A stretch of DNA of 37,253 nt from a virus. Positions 8,828-37,253 of the stretch are shown one piece after another (positions within the stretch are counted from its first letter, which is position 1; every line of letters starts with the position of its first letter). The DNA lies in the IMG/VR virus record IMGVR_UViG_3300033146_003056, positions 1 to 37,253 of that record. One strand, given 5' to 3'. The position numbers and the translations under genes were made by a program. The notes beneath the pieces were generated by a model. It had not been told where the DNA came from. It ran no database searches and worked only from the letters and a program-made list of their open reading frames with translations.

Positions 8828-8862
8828 ATGGGAACCCATATAGAAATTGGGTTCTCATTTTT
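8828..8862 (+). terminator. Rho-independent terminator after the zinc-ribbon gene
   Basis: An 11-bp stem, atgggaaccca (8828-8838) with tgggttctcat (8848-8858), containing one G-U pair, has an 8-base loop and is followed by a T run to 8862. It lies 30 bases after the stop at 8798. Confidence 0.8.
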
Positions 8863-8899
8863 CCGTATACATTACTAATCATATATAAAAATAAGAACA
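8863..8899 (+). promoter_or_regulatory. CCGTATA/AGAACA element, copy A
   Basis: CCGTATA at 8863-8869 directly follows the terminator T run, and AGAACA sits at 8894-8899, 31 bases later. The same pair recurs at 11790-11825 and 12130-12162, each time right after a hairpin and upstream of a plus-strand late gene. Position and repetition suggest a phage-specific promoter or an RNA-processing site; neither is proven. Confidence 0.5.
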
Positions 8900-8948
8900 A
8901 AATAAAAAGCTAAATTAGATTTGCAATGATCACTAAAGGAGTTATAGA

Positions 8949-9626
8949 ATGGAAGATAAAAAGATTAAAGATAAAGAAACTATAGTCGTGAATGTTAACG
9001 ATAACTATGGTGATTCATGTATTAAAGATTCAGTTAATAGTATAGGTACTAAATCTAGAAAACCAGAAGGATATGTTGAAATATATTCTATTGATGAGGA
9101 TGGTAATAAGAAATTAGTTGGTAAAAGTAATTTAGTTTTATTTAAGGGAAGAGAATGGATTGCTTCAAGAATTTGTAATGTTAACAATGGAAATATTGAT
9201 GCAAATGAAGATGAGTTCATATCATGGTTTGGTCTTGGTAATGGTGGAACACCTATTGGTGATCCTTTAAATCCAAATACTCCTACTAATGGTATGGAAG
9301 ATTTATCAAATGAAATTGGGGTGCATAGTACAGATATAGAGTGTGCTGATTATAGAGCAGGAGCTTATTATAAACACCCACTTGATTCAATAGATTTTCA
9401 ACAAGATGCTTTAAATGATGATAAATGGTTGATATTAAAAGTTACTACAACTATATCAGTCGATCATGCAAATGGTTATAATTTAAATGAAGCTGGACTG
9501 TTTACTTCAAATAGTAATGCTGGTGAACATTTAGGTCCATTTAATATTTTTAGTATAGTTACATTTCCAACAATTGTCAAAGATGATTCAAGACAATTAG
9601 TATTTTACTGGTACTTATACTGCTAA
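8949..9626 (+). CDS. Putative tail/baseplate structural protein
   Basis: The ATG at 8949 has AAAGGAG (8935-8941) upstream. The product has 225 residues: an acidic/basic N-terminus (~1-40), then GYVEIYSIDEDGNKKLVGKSN followed by a globular domain rich in Gly, Asn and Trp. The C-terminal segments NEAGLF, IVTFPTIVKDDSRQLVF and WYLYC match a pattern I associate with small phage tail proteins that precede or decorate fibres. It is the first gene after a terminator and the CCGTATA/AGAACA element and probably shares a transcript with the sheath gene 130 bases downstream. Structural class is inferred from context and pattern, without a firm family name. Confidence 0.5.
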   Translation: MEDKKIKDKETIVVNVNDNYGDSCIKDSVNSIGTKSRKPEGYVEIYSIDEDGNKKLVGKSNLVLFKGREWIASRICNVNNGNIDANEDEFISWFGLGNGGTPIGDPLNPNTPTNGMEDLSNEIGVHSTDIECADYRAGAYYKHPLDSIDFQQDALNDDKWLILKVTTTISVDHANGYNLNEAGLFTSNSNAGEHLGPFNIFSIVTFPTIVKDDSRQLVFYWYLYC

Positions 9627-32116: not shown

Positions 32117-33451
32117 TTAATTAACTTCTGCTACTCTATTCTTTCCTTGTTTAATATTCATATCAAGATTAAGAGCAAGATCTTTAGCTGCCTTAGCGCT
32201 TAAGAGATCCATAAACTGACTTACAGCATTACCACCTGAATTTCCTTCTGTAGCACCCATCTGAATATTAGGAACCCATTTTTGTTTACCGAATTCTCTG
32301 GCATATGCTTCCTGAGCAGCTAACCAATATTTAGCTTTAAGTTCAAGAGCACCATCTGCTGCCATAACAACTCTTTTTCTATGAGCCTCACCATCACCCC
32401 TAAGAATGTTAGCTTTCTTTTCCTCAGCAGCGGCTTTAGCATCAAGAGCAGCTATATCTCTATTCTTTTCAGCTTTAATAATTGCTTCTTCTTTAGCAAT
32501 AAATTCCATTTCTTTCTTTTTCTCTGCATTAATAACAGCAACCTCTTTGTCTCTATCAGCTTTAACAACAGCAACTATTTTTAACTGGAGTTCAGCATAC
32601 TCAGCCTTAGCAACACGAGCTTTACCCTGTGCCTCAATAGTAAGCTTATCTTGTTCTGCTTCCTGTGCTTTAGCTTTAGCTGTATTTACTGCCATTCTTG
32701 CTTTCTGCTGTTCTGCAATTTGTTCTTTTACTTTATCTTCATATCTAAAGTTCTTAACCTCAAAGTTTTTAATAAGGGTTTTTCTGGTAAATAGGAGCAC
32801 TACCAACTTTACCATCAACAGTTTTAATAACAGTAACTTCTTTCCAAATCATCTCTCCAGAAACCAAATCTTTAAGATGCTCAAGTTTGGTTGTTGTTTC
32901 ATAAAGACCATTTTCAATTTGATCTTTAGACCAAGCAACAAATTGTCCACGTCTGTTTGAATAAGATTCAGTAGCGCTCATAAGGTTAGCAGTATGTCTC
33001 AAAACTTTTCTAACAGTTGGTTTAATAAGTTTTGTTTCAACATCTGAATAAGTTTTATGACCACGCTCAGTTACTAAAGCAATAGCTTCTGATGGAGAAG
33101 TAGGCATTAAAATTCTAGAAGTTCCTGATATATTACACATAGATCCATCATTAAATCTTACTTTAATAGATGTTTAATAGATGTATCAGCAGCAATATCT
33201 CCTTTAACATCTAGATCTTCAGTAAAGAAAAATGTTTCAGCTTTTGGCCAAACATCAATATCACCAAACATCTGAGCCCAAATTCCTGGTGTCATTTTAG
33301 CTGACATTGTTCCCCAAATAGCTGTCTGTTTAATTTGATAAGTACCTTTATCCACAGTTTCAATTAAAGATTGAGAAAAGATTAATCCAAATACAATAAT
33401 AAATATAAAAACTCCAATTGTACTAACTTTTTTAATTGATAGTCCAAACAA
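32117..33451 (-). pseudogene. SPFH / band-7 protein gene broken into three frames
   Basis: Three adjacent pieces form one protein of ~440 residues. Piece 1 (33451-33158): membrane helix (~10-28), then SLIETVDKGTYQIKQTAIWG. Piece 2 (33140-32769 and upstream): NDGSMCNISGTSRI, TERGHKTYSDVETKLIKPTV. Piece 3 (to 32117): a long Ala/Glu/Lys coiled coil (EQQKARMAVNTAKAKAQEAE). This is the stomatin/prohibitin/flotillin architecture. Break 1 is a perfect 11-bp tandem duplication (33162-33183); removing one copy restores DTSIKVRFNDGSMCNISG. Break 2 is a one-base shift in the A5/C3 tract at about 32784-32791. The first in-frame start is TTG 33451 with no good ribosome binding site, while a perfect GGAGG-ATG at 33485 leads to Met-Glu-stop. 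It could be a decayed gene or carry assembly errors. Confidence 0.75.
33162..33183. repeat. Perfect 11-bp tandem duplication inside the SPFH gene
   Basis: tttaatagatg occurs twice in a row (33162-33172 and 33173-33183). The duplication length is not a multiple of three, so it shifts the frame and creates the stop at 33158. Removing one copy joins the two SPFH pieces seamlessly. Confidence 0.9.
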
Positions 33452-33484: not shown

Positions 33485-33718
33485 TTAATATCCTCCTTCT
33501 CCAATAATAATTTTAATACCATTATGTAATTTTAAATCATTTAAACCTTGATAACATAATAAAGTTTCTACAGGATCATCAAAATTTTCATCAGAACAAT
33601 GTAAGAAATAAATTTTATTTCCTTTTTGAATCATTTTTTTTACACTCATTAAATTGTTCATCTTCTAATTCTTCTTTAGTATAATATCTATCATCAATAT
33701 AACATTTTTTAAATATAT
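33485..33718 (-). pseudogene. Broken small gene between the methyltransferase-like and SPFH genes
   Basis: Two frames together give a sensible ~78-residue protein: CYIDDRYYTKEELEDEQFNE in the first (stop at 33615-33617), then IQKGNKIYFLHCSDENFDDP and LHNGIKIIIGEGGY in the second (33634 to stop 33485-33487). The switch is at an A8 run on the minus strand (33634-33641); one A fewer would join them. The first frame has no ATG. It may have begun at a nearby ATG followed by a one-base shift, or it continues the methyltransferase-like gene by a -1 shift in the A4 at 33722-33725. Its last codons contain GGAGG and the stop overlaps an ATG (TAATG) that opens only Met-Glu-stop. Function unknown. Confidence 0.4.
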
Positions 33719-34219
33719 TTATTTTATTCTTTTTAATATTGCTCTTATATAAATATCTCTTCCATCAAAAACATAATCTGGATTTAATTCAAGAACTTTA
33801 AACCTCTCTTCTAACCCAAAGAAATATTTAAGTCTTTGTGGAGTCCAAATAGAGGCATGAGGCATAGAGGGTTCATTAAGAAGCTCATATGTTAAAAGAG
33901 TATCATGACGTTCCCAATCTGCATGATACATACCTTCAGTAATATTTTCATTTAAAATTATATCAGCAAGAAATCTATAACAAGAGATATTATCAAATTG
34001 ATATTTATAGTTTCCTAAAAATTCAAATGCATCAACATTAGTATGTGTTATATTTTGGAATGGTAATTTCTTTAGCCATTTTTCATGATTTTGCTCAATA
34101 GCATCAGGTGGGTTTATTGACCAATACATTTTATCTAATTGAACTAAAAGATTTTTTTCATCATCTTCAAATTCAATTGGATATATTTTCCCTGCTGCTA
34201 TATTTAAATAACTTTTCAT
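33719..34219 (-). CDS. Small methyltransferase-like protein, probably degenerate
   Basis: The product has 166 residues. The N-terminus SYLNIAAGKIYPIEF resembles motif I of class I SAM-dependent methyltransferases (LNxGxG type) but keeps only one Gly. DNISCYRFLADI and the end FDGRDIYIRAIL also fit a Rossmann-like methyltransferase layout. The length is at the short end for the fold. No substrate is suggested. AGGATTAATAT precedes the ATG, four bases after the previous small gene's stop. Confidence 0.45.
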   Translation of the reverse strand: MKSYLNIAAGKIYPIEFEDDEKNLLVQLDKMYWSINPPDAIEQNHEKWLKKLPFQNITHTNVDAFEFLGNYKYQFDNISCYRFLADIILNENITEGMYHADWERHDTLLTYELLNEPSMPHASIWTPQRLKYFFGLEERFKVLELNPDYVFDGRDIYIRAILKRIK

Positions 34220-34405: not shown

Positions 34406-34873
34406 TTAATTATCCATCCAACATTCTTCAATTTGATCAAGATCATTTGGTTTAAGCTCTAAACCAAATGATTTAAACTTTTCACAAATTTCATTTTTAA
34501 AATCCTCAAGAGTTTGATCAGATTTTTGATCAAATGGTGATTTTCCTAACATAATTGTTTCTTCATATGGCATTGTTGATACTTCTAAATCATCAACTAA
34601 ATTTTCAATAATCCATAGTAAATCATCATCTAAATCTATTAAGAATTTATTATATTCTTCTTCTATTTTTTCTTTACTTTCCTTAGATGGAACTGTCATA
34701 AAAGCACCCTGTTTTAAAGCTTTTTTATGTTTCTTTTCATCTTGTTTACGTTTGTAAATTTCAAATAATTTACGACCATACTTTTTTATCAAATCTTCTT
34801 TTTCAATATTAATTCCCCAAGCTACAAAACTGCAACTACTTGAATTAGTAATAAAATCACTTTTCTTTTTCAT
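34406..34873 (-). CDS. TNSSS-leader family protein 5
   Basis: The product has 155 residues and starts MKKKSDFITNSSSCSFVAWG. The body is helical, acidic and Lys-rich: KKHKKALKQGAFM, EEEYNKFLIDLDDDLLWIIE, then acidic KSDQTLEDFKNEICEKF. AGGAG precedes the ATG. This is the most diverged copy of the leader (MKKKSDFI instead of MKRKLDFV). No motif of known function is visible. Confidence 0.65.
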   Translation of the reverse strand: MKKKSDFITNSSSCSFVAWGINIEKEDLIKKYGRKLFEIYKRKQDEKKHKKALKQGAFMTVPSKESKEKIEEEYNKFLIDLDDDLLWIIENLVDDLEVSTMPYEETIMLGKSPFDQKSDQTLEDFKNEICEKFKSFGLELKPNDLDQIEECWMDN

Positions 34874-34880
34874 ATTTCTC

Positions 34881-35258
34881 CTATAATTTTACTATTGCAT
34901 CAGCTAATTGTTTTTTACCATATTCACTCACATTAGCTGAATCTATTAATATTTGTATACTATCATCATCTAAAATAAAATCAGTTTCAAATAAATGAGA
35001 TGTTATTTGAGGACAAAACATCATTCTACTTTTAATTCCACTTATATTTGTTGCATCAATTCCTAAATCAACAGCTTGTATTGCTTCTTTTTTAGTTGTT
35101 TTAAACATTTGATTATCAACCATACACATTGCTAATTCAGCTTTTTCTTTTTCATGTGTTGTCCATCTATAAATAAAATCTCTTTTTAAAATTGATTTCA
35201 TATCCTTAGTTTGTGTTAACTCAACCCCAAACAAAGTGTAATATTTAAAGTCTTCCAT
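34881..35258 (-). CDS. Unknown protein inside the TNSSS-leader cluster
   Basis: The product has 125 residues without the TNSSS leader. It begins MEDFKYYTLFGVELTQTKDM and contains HEKEKAELAMCMVD and FILDDDSIQILIDSANVSEY. AAAGGA lies 11 bases before the ATG. The stop codon region contains the ribosome binding site of the next gene. No recognised family. Confidence 0.6.
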   Translation of the reverse strand: MEDFKYYTLFGVELTQTKDMKSILKRDFIYRWTTHEKEKAELAMCMVDNQMFKTTKKEAIQAVDLGIDATNISGIKSRMMFCPQITSHLFETDFILDDDSIQILIDSANVSEYGKKQLADAIVKL

Positions 35259-35291
35259 TTATATTATGTTCCTTTAAATCAAAATAGATTC

Positions 35292-35855
35292 TTAATGTTG
35301 GTTTTCAATCAATACTACAAAATCATCTTCATTTATATCAATATGTCTTCCTTCATAATCCATAGTATAACCAATTCTTCCACCGCTAATAAGTCCATCA
35401 TTATCTCCAAAAGAAATCTCTACATAATGATCTAAACCATTATCAATTGCTTTTTTTAATTTAGATACTTTTTCTGTAAGTTCTGTTATATACTCTTTTG
35501 TATAAACAGATGATTTCCAGGACTTTGCTTCTTCTTTTTCTTTTTTCAATTCATCTATAAGAGTCTTTTTATAAACTTCTAATTCTTCATCAACATTTTT
35601 AATTAAATTAGATAATTGAATTGGTCCTGGTAAATAATATGGATCTTCTTTATTAGAAGATAAAATTGGGTCTAATGTTTTAATGATTTCCCATGCATTT
35701 ATATATGGTTTACCAGATCCATATTCATTATATAATTTAAATTCATCTTCATATTTAACCATTTTTTCAAATAAATTAGTTCTTTGATTACCTTTGAATA
35801 TAAATATAAACCCTGTGCTAGAACTATTTGTTACAAAATCAAGTTTTCTTTTCAT
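35292..35855 (-). CDS. TNSSS-leader family protein 4
   Basis: ATG 35855 is chosen over ATG 35861 because it matches the family start and overlaps the upstream stop (TAATG). The product has 187 residues starting MKRKLDFVTNSSSTGFIFIF. The body is a long charged coiled coil (LEVYKKTLIDELKKEKEEAK, ITELTEKVSKLKKAI), followed by a Gly-rich beta end (EISFGDNDGLISGGRIGYTM). No known function. Confidence 0.65.
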   Translation of the reverse strand: MKRKLDFVTNSSSTGFIFIFKGNQRTNLFEKMVKYEDEFKLYNEYGSGKPYINAWEIIKTLDPILSSNKEDPYYLPGPIQLSNLIKNVDEELEVYKKTLIDELKKEKEEAKSWKSSVYTKEYITELTEKVSKLKKAIDNGLDHYVEISFGDNDGLISGGRIGYTMDYEGRHIDINEDDFVVLIENQH

Positions 35856-35856
35856 T
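35830..35856 (-). repeat. 27-bp partial third copy of the start repeat
   Basis: gttacaaaatcaagttttct and the next 7 bases match the two 41-bp copies through the ATG of TNSSS protein 4; the upstream ribosome binding site part differs (it lies in the previous gene). Coding identity at this level suggests recent exchange or strong constraint on the leader. Confidence 0.85.
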
Positions 35857-36241
35857 AACACATCCCCACTCCAGATATAATTTTAATATCTTTTACATCA
35901 AAATGTTTAGATAATTTTTCATCTATATTAAATACATCTTGAATTGTATATTCATGTGATTCAAAATCATCATCATCATATATTCTATTAGTTATACCAA
36001 TACATATTTTATTTTCAGGCAACCCATTTTCACTATCACCTAAAGTAATATCAACCTTTCCATCATATACTTCGTAAAGGTTTTCAATATTATTTAATTC
36101 AGGATCATATTCTTTGGTACCAAATATTTCCATTTGTTCTTTAACAATTATATTAGTTCTATTACCTGGATCAACAACCCAACCAATAAAGATAAATGAA
36201 CATGAACTAGAATTAGTTACAAAATCAAGTTTTCTTTTCAT
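35855..36241 (-). CDS. TNSSS-leader family protein 3
   Basis: The product has 128 residues starting MKRKLDFVTNSSSCSFIFIG. The body is acidic and predicted alpha/beta (VYDGKVDITLGDSENGLPEN, DEKLSKHFDVKDIKIISGVG). The start lies in a 41-bp repeat shared with the upstream gene start, and the first 17 bases overlap the end of that gene. AAGGAT is the ribosome binding site. Confidence 0.65.
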   Translation of the reverse strand: MKRKLDFVTNSSSCSFIFIGWVVDPGNRTNIIVKEQMEIFGTKEYDPELNNIENLYEVYDGKVDITLGDSENGLPENKICIGITNRIYDDDDFESHEYTIQDVFNIDEKLSKHFDVKDIKIISGVGMC

Positions 36242-36256
36242 TTTTATTATCCTTTA
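36216..36256 (-). repeat. 41-bp direct repeat, copy 2
   Basis: The sequence is identical to 36598-36638. It carries the start of TNSSS protein 3 and the end of protein 2. The two copies flank the gene 36225-36623, so recombination between them would delete or duplicate exactly one cassette. Confidence 0.9.
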
Positions 36257-36623
36257 TTTTTTTAATTTTATTTTTATAAGTTAAACAATTTATATTTATC
36301 ATAATACTATCTTCATTTTCACCACAAGATTCTAAAGAATCTATCATCAATCCATTATTAGTATAAATATTTGAAAGAACAATATATGGTTCATATTGAT
36401 ATGCGCTAATTTCTCCTTGGTTAATTAATGTTAGATGATTTTGTAATATTTCAAAAACAAAATCTTTTTTAGTAAATTGTTCAGATATCCATTCTTTAGA
36501 TAATTCTTTATCTATTAAATCTTTATTTTCTTCAACAGCTTTATTAATATCAAAGTCACCTGGAATATAAACTAAATAACTACATGATGAACTATTTGTT
36601 ACAAAATCAAGTTTTCTTTTCAT
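36225..36623 (-). CDS. TNSSS-leader family protein 2
   Basis: The product has 132 residues starting MKRKLDFVTNSSSCSYLVYI. The body is acidic with KEWISEQFTKKDFVFEILQN and ends KDNKNEKKT, a tail encoded by the 41-bp repeat at the next gene's start. Both ends of the gene lie in copies of that repeat. Function unknown. Confidence 0.65.
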   Translation of the reverse strand: MKRKLDFVTNSSSCSYLVYIPGDFDINKAVEENKDLIDKELSKEWISEQFTKKDFVFEILQNHLTLINQGEISAYQYEPYIVLSNIYTNNGLMIDSLESCGENEDSIMININCLTYKNKIKKIKDNKNEKKT

Positions 36624-36638
36624 TTTTATTATCCTTTA
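36598..36638 (-). repeat. 41-bp direct repeat, copy 1
   Basis: The sequence is identical to 36216-36256 over all 41 bases. It contains the ribosome binding site, start codon and first seven codons of TNSSS protein 2 plus the last codons (KDNKNEKKT, stop) of the preceding gene. Confidence 0.9.
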
Positions 36639-36825
36639 CAAAATCACAAGCAAAGTAATGTCCTGGTTTAAGAGATTCTTTTCCTAAATTTAAAATTCCT
36701 ATTATTATAGAAGCAACAACATGAGTACATTTAATTTTATTAATAGCAAATATTAATTTTCCTCTATTAAAAATTCCAAATATAAAATGTTGTTGCTCTT
36801 TATAATATTGTGAGTTAGTAATCAT
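36607..36825 (-). CDS. Small unknown protein within the TNSSS-leader cluster
   Basis: ATG 36825 gives 72 residues (MITNSQYYKEQQHFIFGIFN...); an upstream in-frame start (36858) would overlap the previous gene by more and add only sequence that is coding in another frame. The middle contains HVVASIIIGILNLGKES, a hydrophobic turn, and the end KDNKNEKKT comes from the 41-bp repeat. No TNSSS leader. It overlaps the previous gene by 11 bases. Possibly a remnant; confidence is lower. Confidence 0.45.
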   Translation of the reverse strand: MITNSQYYKEQQHFIFGIFNRGKLIFAINKIKCTHVVASIIIGILNLGKESLKPGHYFACDFVKDNKNEKKT

Positions 36826-37168
36826 TTTCAACATTAAAACCAGATACAACAAACCCAAAATCTGGATCTTTAATAAATGAATTTTGCATTAACTCTTTCA
36901 TATATGCAGGAACATCTTCTTCACCATTATACATAGTGGTCCATTCATTTATAGTAAATAGATTTGGACCACTATCATTCTGAACTTGATCAATATTTGT
37001 TGCATCCCAATAACGAAGACCATGAGGATTTCTAAATTTAAAATTATCAAGATATTCATTAAATAAATTTGTAAATTCATCTAATTCCATAGTTCCGTCA
37101 TGTGGTCTTAATGTTAATATAAATGATGCTGATGAACTGTTTGTTATAAAATCTACTTTTCTTTTCAT
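36815..37168 (-). CDS. TNSSS-leader family protein 1
   Basis: The product has 117 residues starting MKRKVDFITNSSSASFILTL. The remainder contains acidic ELDEFTNLFNEYLDNFKF, RYWDATNIDQVQND and a Phe/Gly-rich end (FGFVVSGFNVEND). AAGGATTTTAAT precedes the ATG. It follows a partial gene by one base between stop and start. Confidence 0.65.
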   Translation of the reverse strand: MKRKVDFITNSSSASFILTLRPHDGTMELDEFTNLFNEYLDNFKFRNPHGLRYWDATNIDQVQNDSGPNLFTINEWTTMYNGEEDVPAYMKELMQNSFIKDPDFGFVVSGFNVENDY

Positions 37169-37169
37169 A

Positions 37170-37253
37170 TTAAAATCCTTGTACTGTATATGGACAACAT
37201 GCTTTCTCTTGAGTTAAAATATTTCTAAAGTCAATAAAAGGTTTAGCTGTTTT
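37170..37253 (-). CDS. 3' end of a gene cut by the window edge
   Basis: The frame is open from the right edge to TAA at 37170-37172 and encodes KTAKPFIDFRNILTQEKACC followed by PYTVQGF. No ATG is inside the window, so the start lies beyond the edge. The stop is one base from the next start, and the next gene's ribosome binding site lies in its last codons, which supports a real gene. Product unknown. Confidence 0.45.
   Translation of the reverse strand, partial: KTAKPFIDFRNILTQEKACCPYTVQGF

Follow-up and report, generated by a model that had tools for sequence, protein, structure and literature searches.

The window analyzed here is the whole of a 37-kb virus record (IMGVR_UViG_3300033146_003056; 37,253 nucleotides). 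Its genes include those for a large terminase of the T4 type, a tail sheath, and a baseplate, and it therefore represents part of the genome of a large tailed phage. Five tandem minus-strand open reading frames (ORFs) near its end (starts 37168, 36623, 36241, 35855, and 34873) open with a common leader, MK[RK]KxDF[VI]TNSSSxxF, followed by unrelated protein bodies. Leaders of this type are almost confined to places that also have a gene for one radical S-adenosylmethionine (radical-SAM) enzyme, hereafter rSAM-A, and are therefore probably a handle for recognition and modification by this enzyme. From these sequence data, we consider it likely that the leader serves a dedicated phage-encoded rSAM-A for docking or as a substrate sequence and that the leader proteins are substrates of this enzyme.

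The leader peptide and its protein bodies

Two scans of IMG/VR, one with a pattern derived from the leader (40 loci) and one with a pattern from cultured phages (MKIRxGF[VI]SNSS; 120 loci), together with annotated phages, yielded 399 distinct leader proteins from ~150 loci. Their 16-residue consensus is M-K-x-[RK]-x-[GD]-F-[VI]-[ST]-N-S-S-S-x-S-[FY]; it begins at residue 1 in all proteins, with Phe always at residue 7 and no indels, and internal occurrences are practically absent. Because a profile scan that did not require the NSS core recovered just six extra leader variants, this near-invariance is not an artefact of the search pattern. Chance is excluded as well, since 80 out-of-sample loci contain 279 occurrences of the pattern vs. 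0.6 after codon shuffling. Genomes contain from 1 to 14 leader matches, frequently in tandem clusters (largest contig: 548 kb).

In the window, the Ser codon triplets differ by gene (AGT TCA TCA, TCT AGT TCA, AGT TCT AGC, and TCA AGT AGT), and the Ser codon box is switched in 40% of within-genome leader pairs. The codons vary while the peptide stays the same, thus selection acts on the protein and not on the DNA. A first-pass annotation of the window, made from its letters alone, had pointed out the five shared starts; these hold, with conservation at the protein level, and the window has no sixth intact copy. Recent DNA shuffling of the leader was rejected because the codons have diverged, and a secretion signal was rejected by inspection (no hydrophobic core and no signal cleavage motif). 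The invariable position at a start codon would also suit a signal at the RNA or ribosome level that acts in translation or regulation, with the linkage to rSAM-A arising from hitchhiking in an accessory region. However, given a constant peptide under switching Ser codons, and a linkage (see next section) that persists on plasmids and at 20 kb in T4-like phages, we regard this explanation as highly improbable.

The bodies sort into 102 groups (69 singletons), and an hhalign comparison of the larger groups found 1/190 family pairs to be homologous (probability >50%). Searches of the leader proteins against Pfam, PHROG, and NCBIfam returned no recurring family except PHROG 7397, with sporadic and weak matches in Pfam and NCBIfam. 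PHROG 7397, a family of unknown function, corresponds to body family 3 (RB16, Lw1, GAP161, and Miro), leader included; it thus covers one of ~100 body families, and the leader itself forms no family there. Leader proteins range from about 50–305 aa (median 132 aa), their bodies are acidic (D + E: 20.8% vs. 13.4% in other ORFs), and two body families show zinc-ribbon-like Cys patterns. These results agree with the first-pass annotation, which had called the bodies unrelated and mostly acidic.

AlphaFold2 models of two families (families 0 and 3; mean predicted local distance difference test [pLDDT] of 90 and 82, respectively) are folded, whereas residues 1–12 are of low confidence and unstructured. 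This includes the fifth leader protein of the window (family 0; mean pLDDT 90), whose leader is disordered. In both families, the first strand starts from residue 13 and a C-terminal strand comes last, and the folds otherwise differ. Family 0 had no relative in a solved-structure profile search or in Foldseek searches of PDB and BFVD, and the sole Foldseek match of family 3 in BFVD was a 90%-identical viral copy. The annotation had itself raised the alternative that the leader is simply the first strand of one fold shared by diverged paralogs. The common positions of the first and last strands are in line with this idea, but residues 1–12, where most of the conserved positions lie, precede the first strand in the models, and 189 of the 190 body-family pairs lack detectable homology. 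Together with the zinc-ribbon-like patterns of two families, the lack of indels in the leader, and leaders that track the genome and not the body family, this makes descent from one fold scarcely credible.

Many large families also carry a conserved C-terminal tail of their own that ends at the last residue (body families 0, 1, 3, 5, 8, 9, 18, and 19; the tails are ISHH, EECWMDN/WxDG, GEGGY, GxRMC, GAGRNG, ENQH, GGGYDG, and VSNDNY). G, Y, C, H, or W occurs within the last three residues in 260/387 leader proteins, compared to 598/1746 other ORFs.

Among cultured phages, carriers identified via PHROG 7397 belong to the Straboviridae (Pseudotevenvirus: RB43, RB16, Lw1, GAP161; Slopekvirus: Miro, Matisse, KP15). 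When searched whole, RB43, RB16, Lw1, GAP161, and Miro each encode two leader proteins (MKIRSGFVSNSSSSSFI), and the surrounding region contains many small hypothetical genes. The annotation had mentioned a ‘TNSSS’ start in phage proteins, and such a start is indeed present in RB43, RB16, Lw1, GAP161, and Klebsiella phages; no function was found for it in the open-access literature. According to its record, the host of Lw1 is E. coli BL21(DE3). The two leader proteins of Lw1 are Lw1_gp116 and gp111, and its rSAM-A gene lies at 89,248–90,324; in RB43, rSAM-A corresponds to RB43ORF169c. A tblastn search of phage records with the leader alone gave no matches, probably due to masking of the serine-rich stretch, and two leader proteins searched against phage records gave none. 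In bacterial genome contigs, scanned with the K-x-D-F pattern only, two loci were confirmed.

Linkage and co-divergence with rSAM-A

Clustering of the genes around leaders identified rSAM-A as the commonest neighbor by far (58/152 contigs; median distance 215 bp), and it lies on the same strand as, and directly beside, leader arrays of both leader types described below. The enzyme gene is ≤5 kb from a leader gene in 27/39 genomes, compared to 4.1 expected by chance, and was found in 41/50 leader-bearing records. In T4-like phages (RB43, Lw1, GAP161, and Miro), rSAM-A is present even though it lies ~20 kb from the leaders. Across 50,697 phage records, rSAM-A matched 174 and leader family 3 matched 173, with nearly equal organism composition.

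The window itself ends in this gene. The contig end is 85 bases upstream of the first leader gene, and the terminal bases (37170–37253, minus strand) encode 27 codons and a stop, ending in KPFIDFRNILTQEKACCPYTVQGF, of an ORF that is cut by the contig end. This agrees with the C-terminus of rSAM-A (KPFKDFRHVLMGTKACCPYTVLGF) in L007 and L008, the relatives closest to the window, where rSAM-A immediately precedes the first leader gene. Therefore, rSAM-A belongs to the cassette of the window.

Searching from rSAM-A alone, we fetched 80 IMG/VR loci and found leader genes in 70, and among previously unseen rSAM-A contigs, 38/44 have leaders within 10 kb. Seven named records were picked through rSAM-A: Vibrio phage D479, which has five leaders, Slopekvirus CPRSB (a Klebsiella phage), which has two, four plasmids, and Salmonella phage Arash. 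In CPRSB, the rSAM-A gene (L210 2983–3972) appears disrupted, with a second, shifted match that contains stops, and both leader genes are kept. T4, RB49, KVP40, phiKZ, G, RaK2, and GAP32 have neither rSAM-A nor a leader, and MaMV-DC, Lak-B1, and phiYS40 encode other radical-SAM proteins (weak rSAM-A matches only) and no leader. None of the 21 named records tested was discordant for the two elements (Fisher’s exact test: p = 3e-6), a value that is descriptive only because the records are non-independent and the positives came via the leader or rSAM-A.

Leader positions 4, 6, and 9 covary, defining two dialects (R-G-S: 280/399 proteins; K-D-T: 100/399 proteins). Of 99 loci with multiple leaders, 97 are single-dialect, whereas permutation gave a mean of 46 mixed loci (minimum 35). 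Dialect tracks the genome and the enzyme clade and not the protein body. Because nearly all loci are dialect-pure even though 11 body families span both dialects, unrelated proteins of the same genome must have changed their leaders jointly. In the rSAM-A tree, a single branch separates exactly the same two groups (support: 100/98), and the cluster motif of the enzyme differs between the two groups (CYQG vs. mostly CYK[SGKD]N). Plasmid leaders represent a third dialect, K-D-S. The simplest reading of these sequence patterns is that a single common recognizer constrains all leaders and that rSAM-A would be this recognizer.

The annotation had interpreted the leader as a targeting, sorting, or processing signal for delivery to the capsid, the host membrane, or a phage compartment. 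A short constant N-terminus with a common recognizer, borne by a cassette of unrelated cargo proteins, survives from this interpretation; delivery does not, as nothing points to a capsid, membrane, or compartment, and the data identify a radical-SAM enzyme instead. The finding is more general than the annotation supposed, and we read the leader as a tag that a radical-SAM enzyme recognizes and not as a sorting tag.

Two other candidate partners were considered. A second radical-SAM family, rSAM-B (CNLKCSYC; L021 8887–9915, L039 8654–9736, and others), is found near helicase-like, SbcC/SbcD-like, and leader genes; it was rejected as a general partner because, among the genomes tested, it occurs in the K-D-T clade only. 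A 740-aa von Willebrand A protein is encoded one gene downstream of the leader gene in Pseudotevenvirus and Slopekvirus (L056 8849–11095; L057 8481–10697), and this protein of T4-like phages was rejected because it is absent from the 45 most widespread neighbor families. Leader arrays also occur in two archaeal bins of metagenome-assembled genomes, with rSAM-A in a Lokiarchaeota bin (L054) and with rSAM-B in a Thermoplasmatales bin (L055). The L054 contig also has a tail-sheath homologue and is thus probably a phage contig that was misplaced in the archaeal bin.

The enzyme, its proposed substrates, and alternative roles

The rSAM-A protein (~345 aa) is a radical-SAM enzyme with a SPASM-like C-terminus, containing a CxxxCxxC-type cluster motif and a PF04055 match. 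Most members scanned score higher than the Radical_SAM and SPASM cut-offs of Pfam (PF13186 is above its cut-off in 3/4 scanned phage enzymes). In the R-G-S clade, the first Cys gap is often longer, and one of the four scanned enzymes falls below the Radical_SAM cut-off. The seven-Cys SPASM motif (CX9-15GX4C...CX2CX5CX3C...C) is incomplete in phages, with the CX2CX5CX3C tail found in 0/90 phage enzymes and in 4/4 plasmid enzymes; judged by its cysteines, the phage rSAM-A is a reduced, Twitch-like SPASM form. Among its weak NCBIfam neighbors, maturases of peptides, protein cofactors, or heme predominate. The full-length viperin (pVip) model was not matched, with only partial PADLOC matches and NCBIfam scores far below the cut-off. 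In one leader locus (L013), a KptA/Tpt1 RNA 2'-phosphotransferase gene (8842–9402; PF01885, E = 3e-52) directly follows rSAM-A. A radical-SAM enzyme of the rSAM-A type has been noticed in annotation (PMC9960720), and the relevant passages of that report name no substrate and do not describe a link to leader proteins. Raoultella phage Rpl1 is among our rSAM-A matches.

Four plasmids of Agrobacterium, Rhizobium, and Rhodobacter have one leader gene each, immediately upstream of rSAM-A. The gene order is a SMEK-domain protein (P-loop ATPase), a small protein (3/4 plasmids; not seen in L225), the leader protein, and a full-SPASM rSAM-A (L225 3566–8002; L226 3547–8002; L228 1550–6002; L229 1560–6011), and the ATPase matches PADLOC Avs2 models in both plasmids scanned. 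Based on this comparison, the row looks like a candidate undescribed defence operon. The leader/rSAM-A pair of plasmids resembles Avs2-type STAND (signal transduction ATPases with numerous domains) and SMEK systems in that it follows such an ATPase in an operon-like row. The recurrent neighbors of leader genes in phages do not include an ATPase of this kind, and to our knowledge, the Avs systems described so far include no radical-SAM/leader pair. In Salmonella phage Arash, a single chain (gp146c; L209 2572–4002) joins a leader-like N-terminus (QIRYGFATNSSSSHSVIL), an unknown domain of ~160 aa, and a divergent radical-SAM domain. This protein carries a methyltransferase annotation.

If rSAM-A acts on the leader proteins, it would dock on the constant 16 N-terminal residues of many different folded proteins and, once docked, would change them chemically. 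Given that no residues outside the leader are shared by all of the proteins, the modification site would more likely be a leader residue (F7...N10-S11-S12-S13...F16) than a residue of the bodies; the family-specific C-terminal tails are a second candidate. An oxidation or a cross-link of a Ser, Asn, or aromatic residue may serve as an example of the reaction, and we do not claim a specific one. As a guess, the modified products could be accessory proteins that are made early and directed against the host or its defences. A broader proposal, which we advance tentatively, is a general protein-tagging system, in which one radical-SAM enzyme would place the same unusual modification on about ten unrelated folded proteins, the 16-residue N-terminal code would exist in clade dialects, and the module would have been recruited by, or from, an Avs-like plasmid defence operon.

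Several observations weigh against substrates of rSAM-A. The bodies are folded domains of about 50–305 aa and not the short cores of ribosomally synthesized and post-translationally modified peptides (RiPPs). No separate RiPP recognition element (RRE; PqqD-like) domain was found in rSAM-A, for which the Pfam scan gave Radical_SAM and SPASM only, and a stand-alone RRE could be encoded elsewhere. The split of dialect and enzyme coincides with one division between phage lineages and counts as one event for the enzyme, and the K-D-T lineage has rSAM-B in addition. Among the new rSAM-A contigs, 6/44 have no leader within 10 kb, and 9/50 leader records, which may be incomplete, have no rSAM-A. Of these nine records, three have rSAM-B, and the other six, among them a 261-kb contig with six leaders, lack both enzymes. 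The fusion was seen in Arash only, and a search of IMG/VR found no relative of it.

An alternative role for the leader proteins is that of adaptors. In such a model, the leader would dock rSAM-A and the tagged protein would not be a substrate; each body would bind a different host or phage target, thereby aiming one enzyme at many targets. A constant leader on numerous unrelated bodies is consistent with this model, the conserved family-specific C-termini could be the target-binding parts, the Arash fusion would fix one such domain to the enzyme, and plasmids have a single leader protein between the Avs-like ATPase and rSAM-A. However, a substrate would account just as well for a leader that is strongly conserved at the residue level and that changes jointly with the enzyme, and we consider adaptors a rather unlikely alternative to substrates.

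The closest analogues of a leader-guided substrate are found in RiPP pathways with radical-SAM/SPASM maturases (sactipeptides, pyrroloquinoline quinone, mycofactocin, and streptide), which also combine a radical-SAM enzyme bearing an auxiliary Fe-S region with adjacent genes that share a constant N-terminal leader and vary in the rest. As in RiPPs, a constant leader lies beside a putative modifying enzyme; in contrast to RiPPs, no short unstructured core follows the leader, as the two modelled families are folded (pLDDT 82–90). Leader proteins also differ in reaching 14 matches per genome, scattered over several loci, in large tailed phages, and the enzyme differs in having no RRE match and, in phages, no full SPASM Cys tail. 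No peptidase or exporter was noticed among the neighbors of leader genes. As described for SuiB, a leader can be bound without an RRE domain (PMC6231123).

A second analogue, the capsid targeting sequence (CTS) of T4 internal proteins, relates to delivery of leader proteins to the capsid or another compartment, with rSAM-A as a mere neighbor. A short constant N-terminus on varied small phage proteins is common to both cases: T4 internal proteins are described as a diverse, hypervariable set of small counter-defence proteins with only the N-terminal targeting sequence conserved (PMC3012670). However, the leader has another sequence than the CTS, and T4, which has internal proteins, has no match to the leader profile. 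Cleavage by the T4-type prohead protease requires Glu, which is missing from the leader consensus, and neither a relation to the CTS nor its cleavage site was found. In addition, the leader has a radical-SAM partner and is found with it on bacterial plasmids, where no capsid exists; we thus consider capsid or compartment sorting very unlikely. For RB43, Lw1, and Klebsiella relatives, the open-access literature yielded no virion proteome.

In the open-access literature (preprints not covered), searches with the leader strings and for phage systems that combine a leader with a radical-SAM enzyme gave no description of the pair, which thus appears to be undescribed, although an earlier description may exist elsewhere. 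We know of no precedent for leader-guided radical-SAM enzymes at such a scale on folded viral proteins. If rSAM-A does modify the leader proteins, leader-guided radical-SAM chemistry would extend from short peptides to folded proteins, and viruses would have a previously unknown class of post-translational modification. The ~100 body groups of phage ‘hypothetical proteins’, sampled here from environmental as well as cultured phages, would be united by one biochemical handle. The proposal provides a concrete enzyme-substrate prediction, with both parts present in the E. coli phages RB43 and Lw1, and the position of the pair beside an Avs-like plasmid ATPase suggests a role in phage-host conflict.

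The cassette of the window

All genes of the cassette are on the minus strand. Downstream of rSAM-A, the five leader proteins represent five different body families: leader protein 1 (36815–37168; 117 aa; family 7; leader at 37121–37168), leader protein 2 (36225–36623; 132 aa; family 6; leader at 36576–36623), leader protein 3 (35855–36241; 128 aa; family 5; C-terminus GVGMC; leader at 36194–36241), leader protein 4 (35292–35855; 187 aa; family 9; C-terminus IENQH; leader at 35808–35855), and leader protein 5 (34406–34873; 155 aa; family 0; C-terminus EECWMDN; leader at 34826–34873). A leaderless gene (34881–35258; 125 aa) between leader proteins 4 and 5 belongs to neighborhood family 31, which was found in 8 contigs. 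A second leaderless gene (33719–34219) encodes a methyltransferase-like protein of neighborhood family 5 (14 contigs), a relative of which weakly matches PF08242.

The remnant of a sixth cassette gene (33485–33661) corresponds to the C-terminal end of body family 1 (...GEGGY); its leader part is missing, and the gene is intact in L007 and L008. Beside the cassette lies a Band_7/SPFH (prohibitin-like) gene (32117–33451, minus strand) that is split into three ORFs in the window and is intact in relatives (L007 13142–14509; PF01145). The copy in the window is frameshifted, through either sequencing error or decay.

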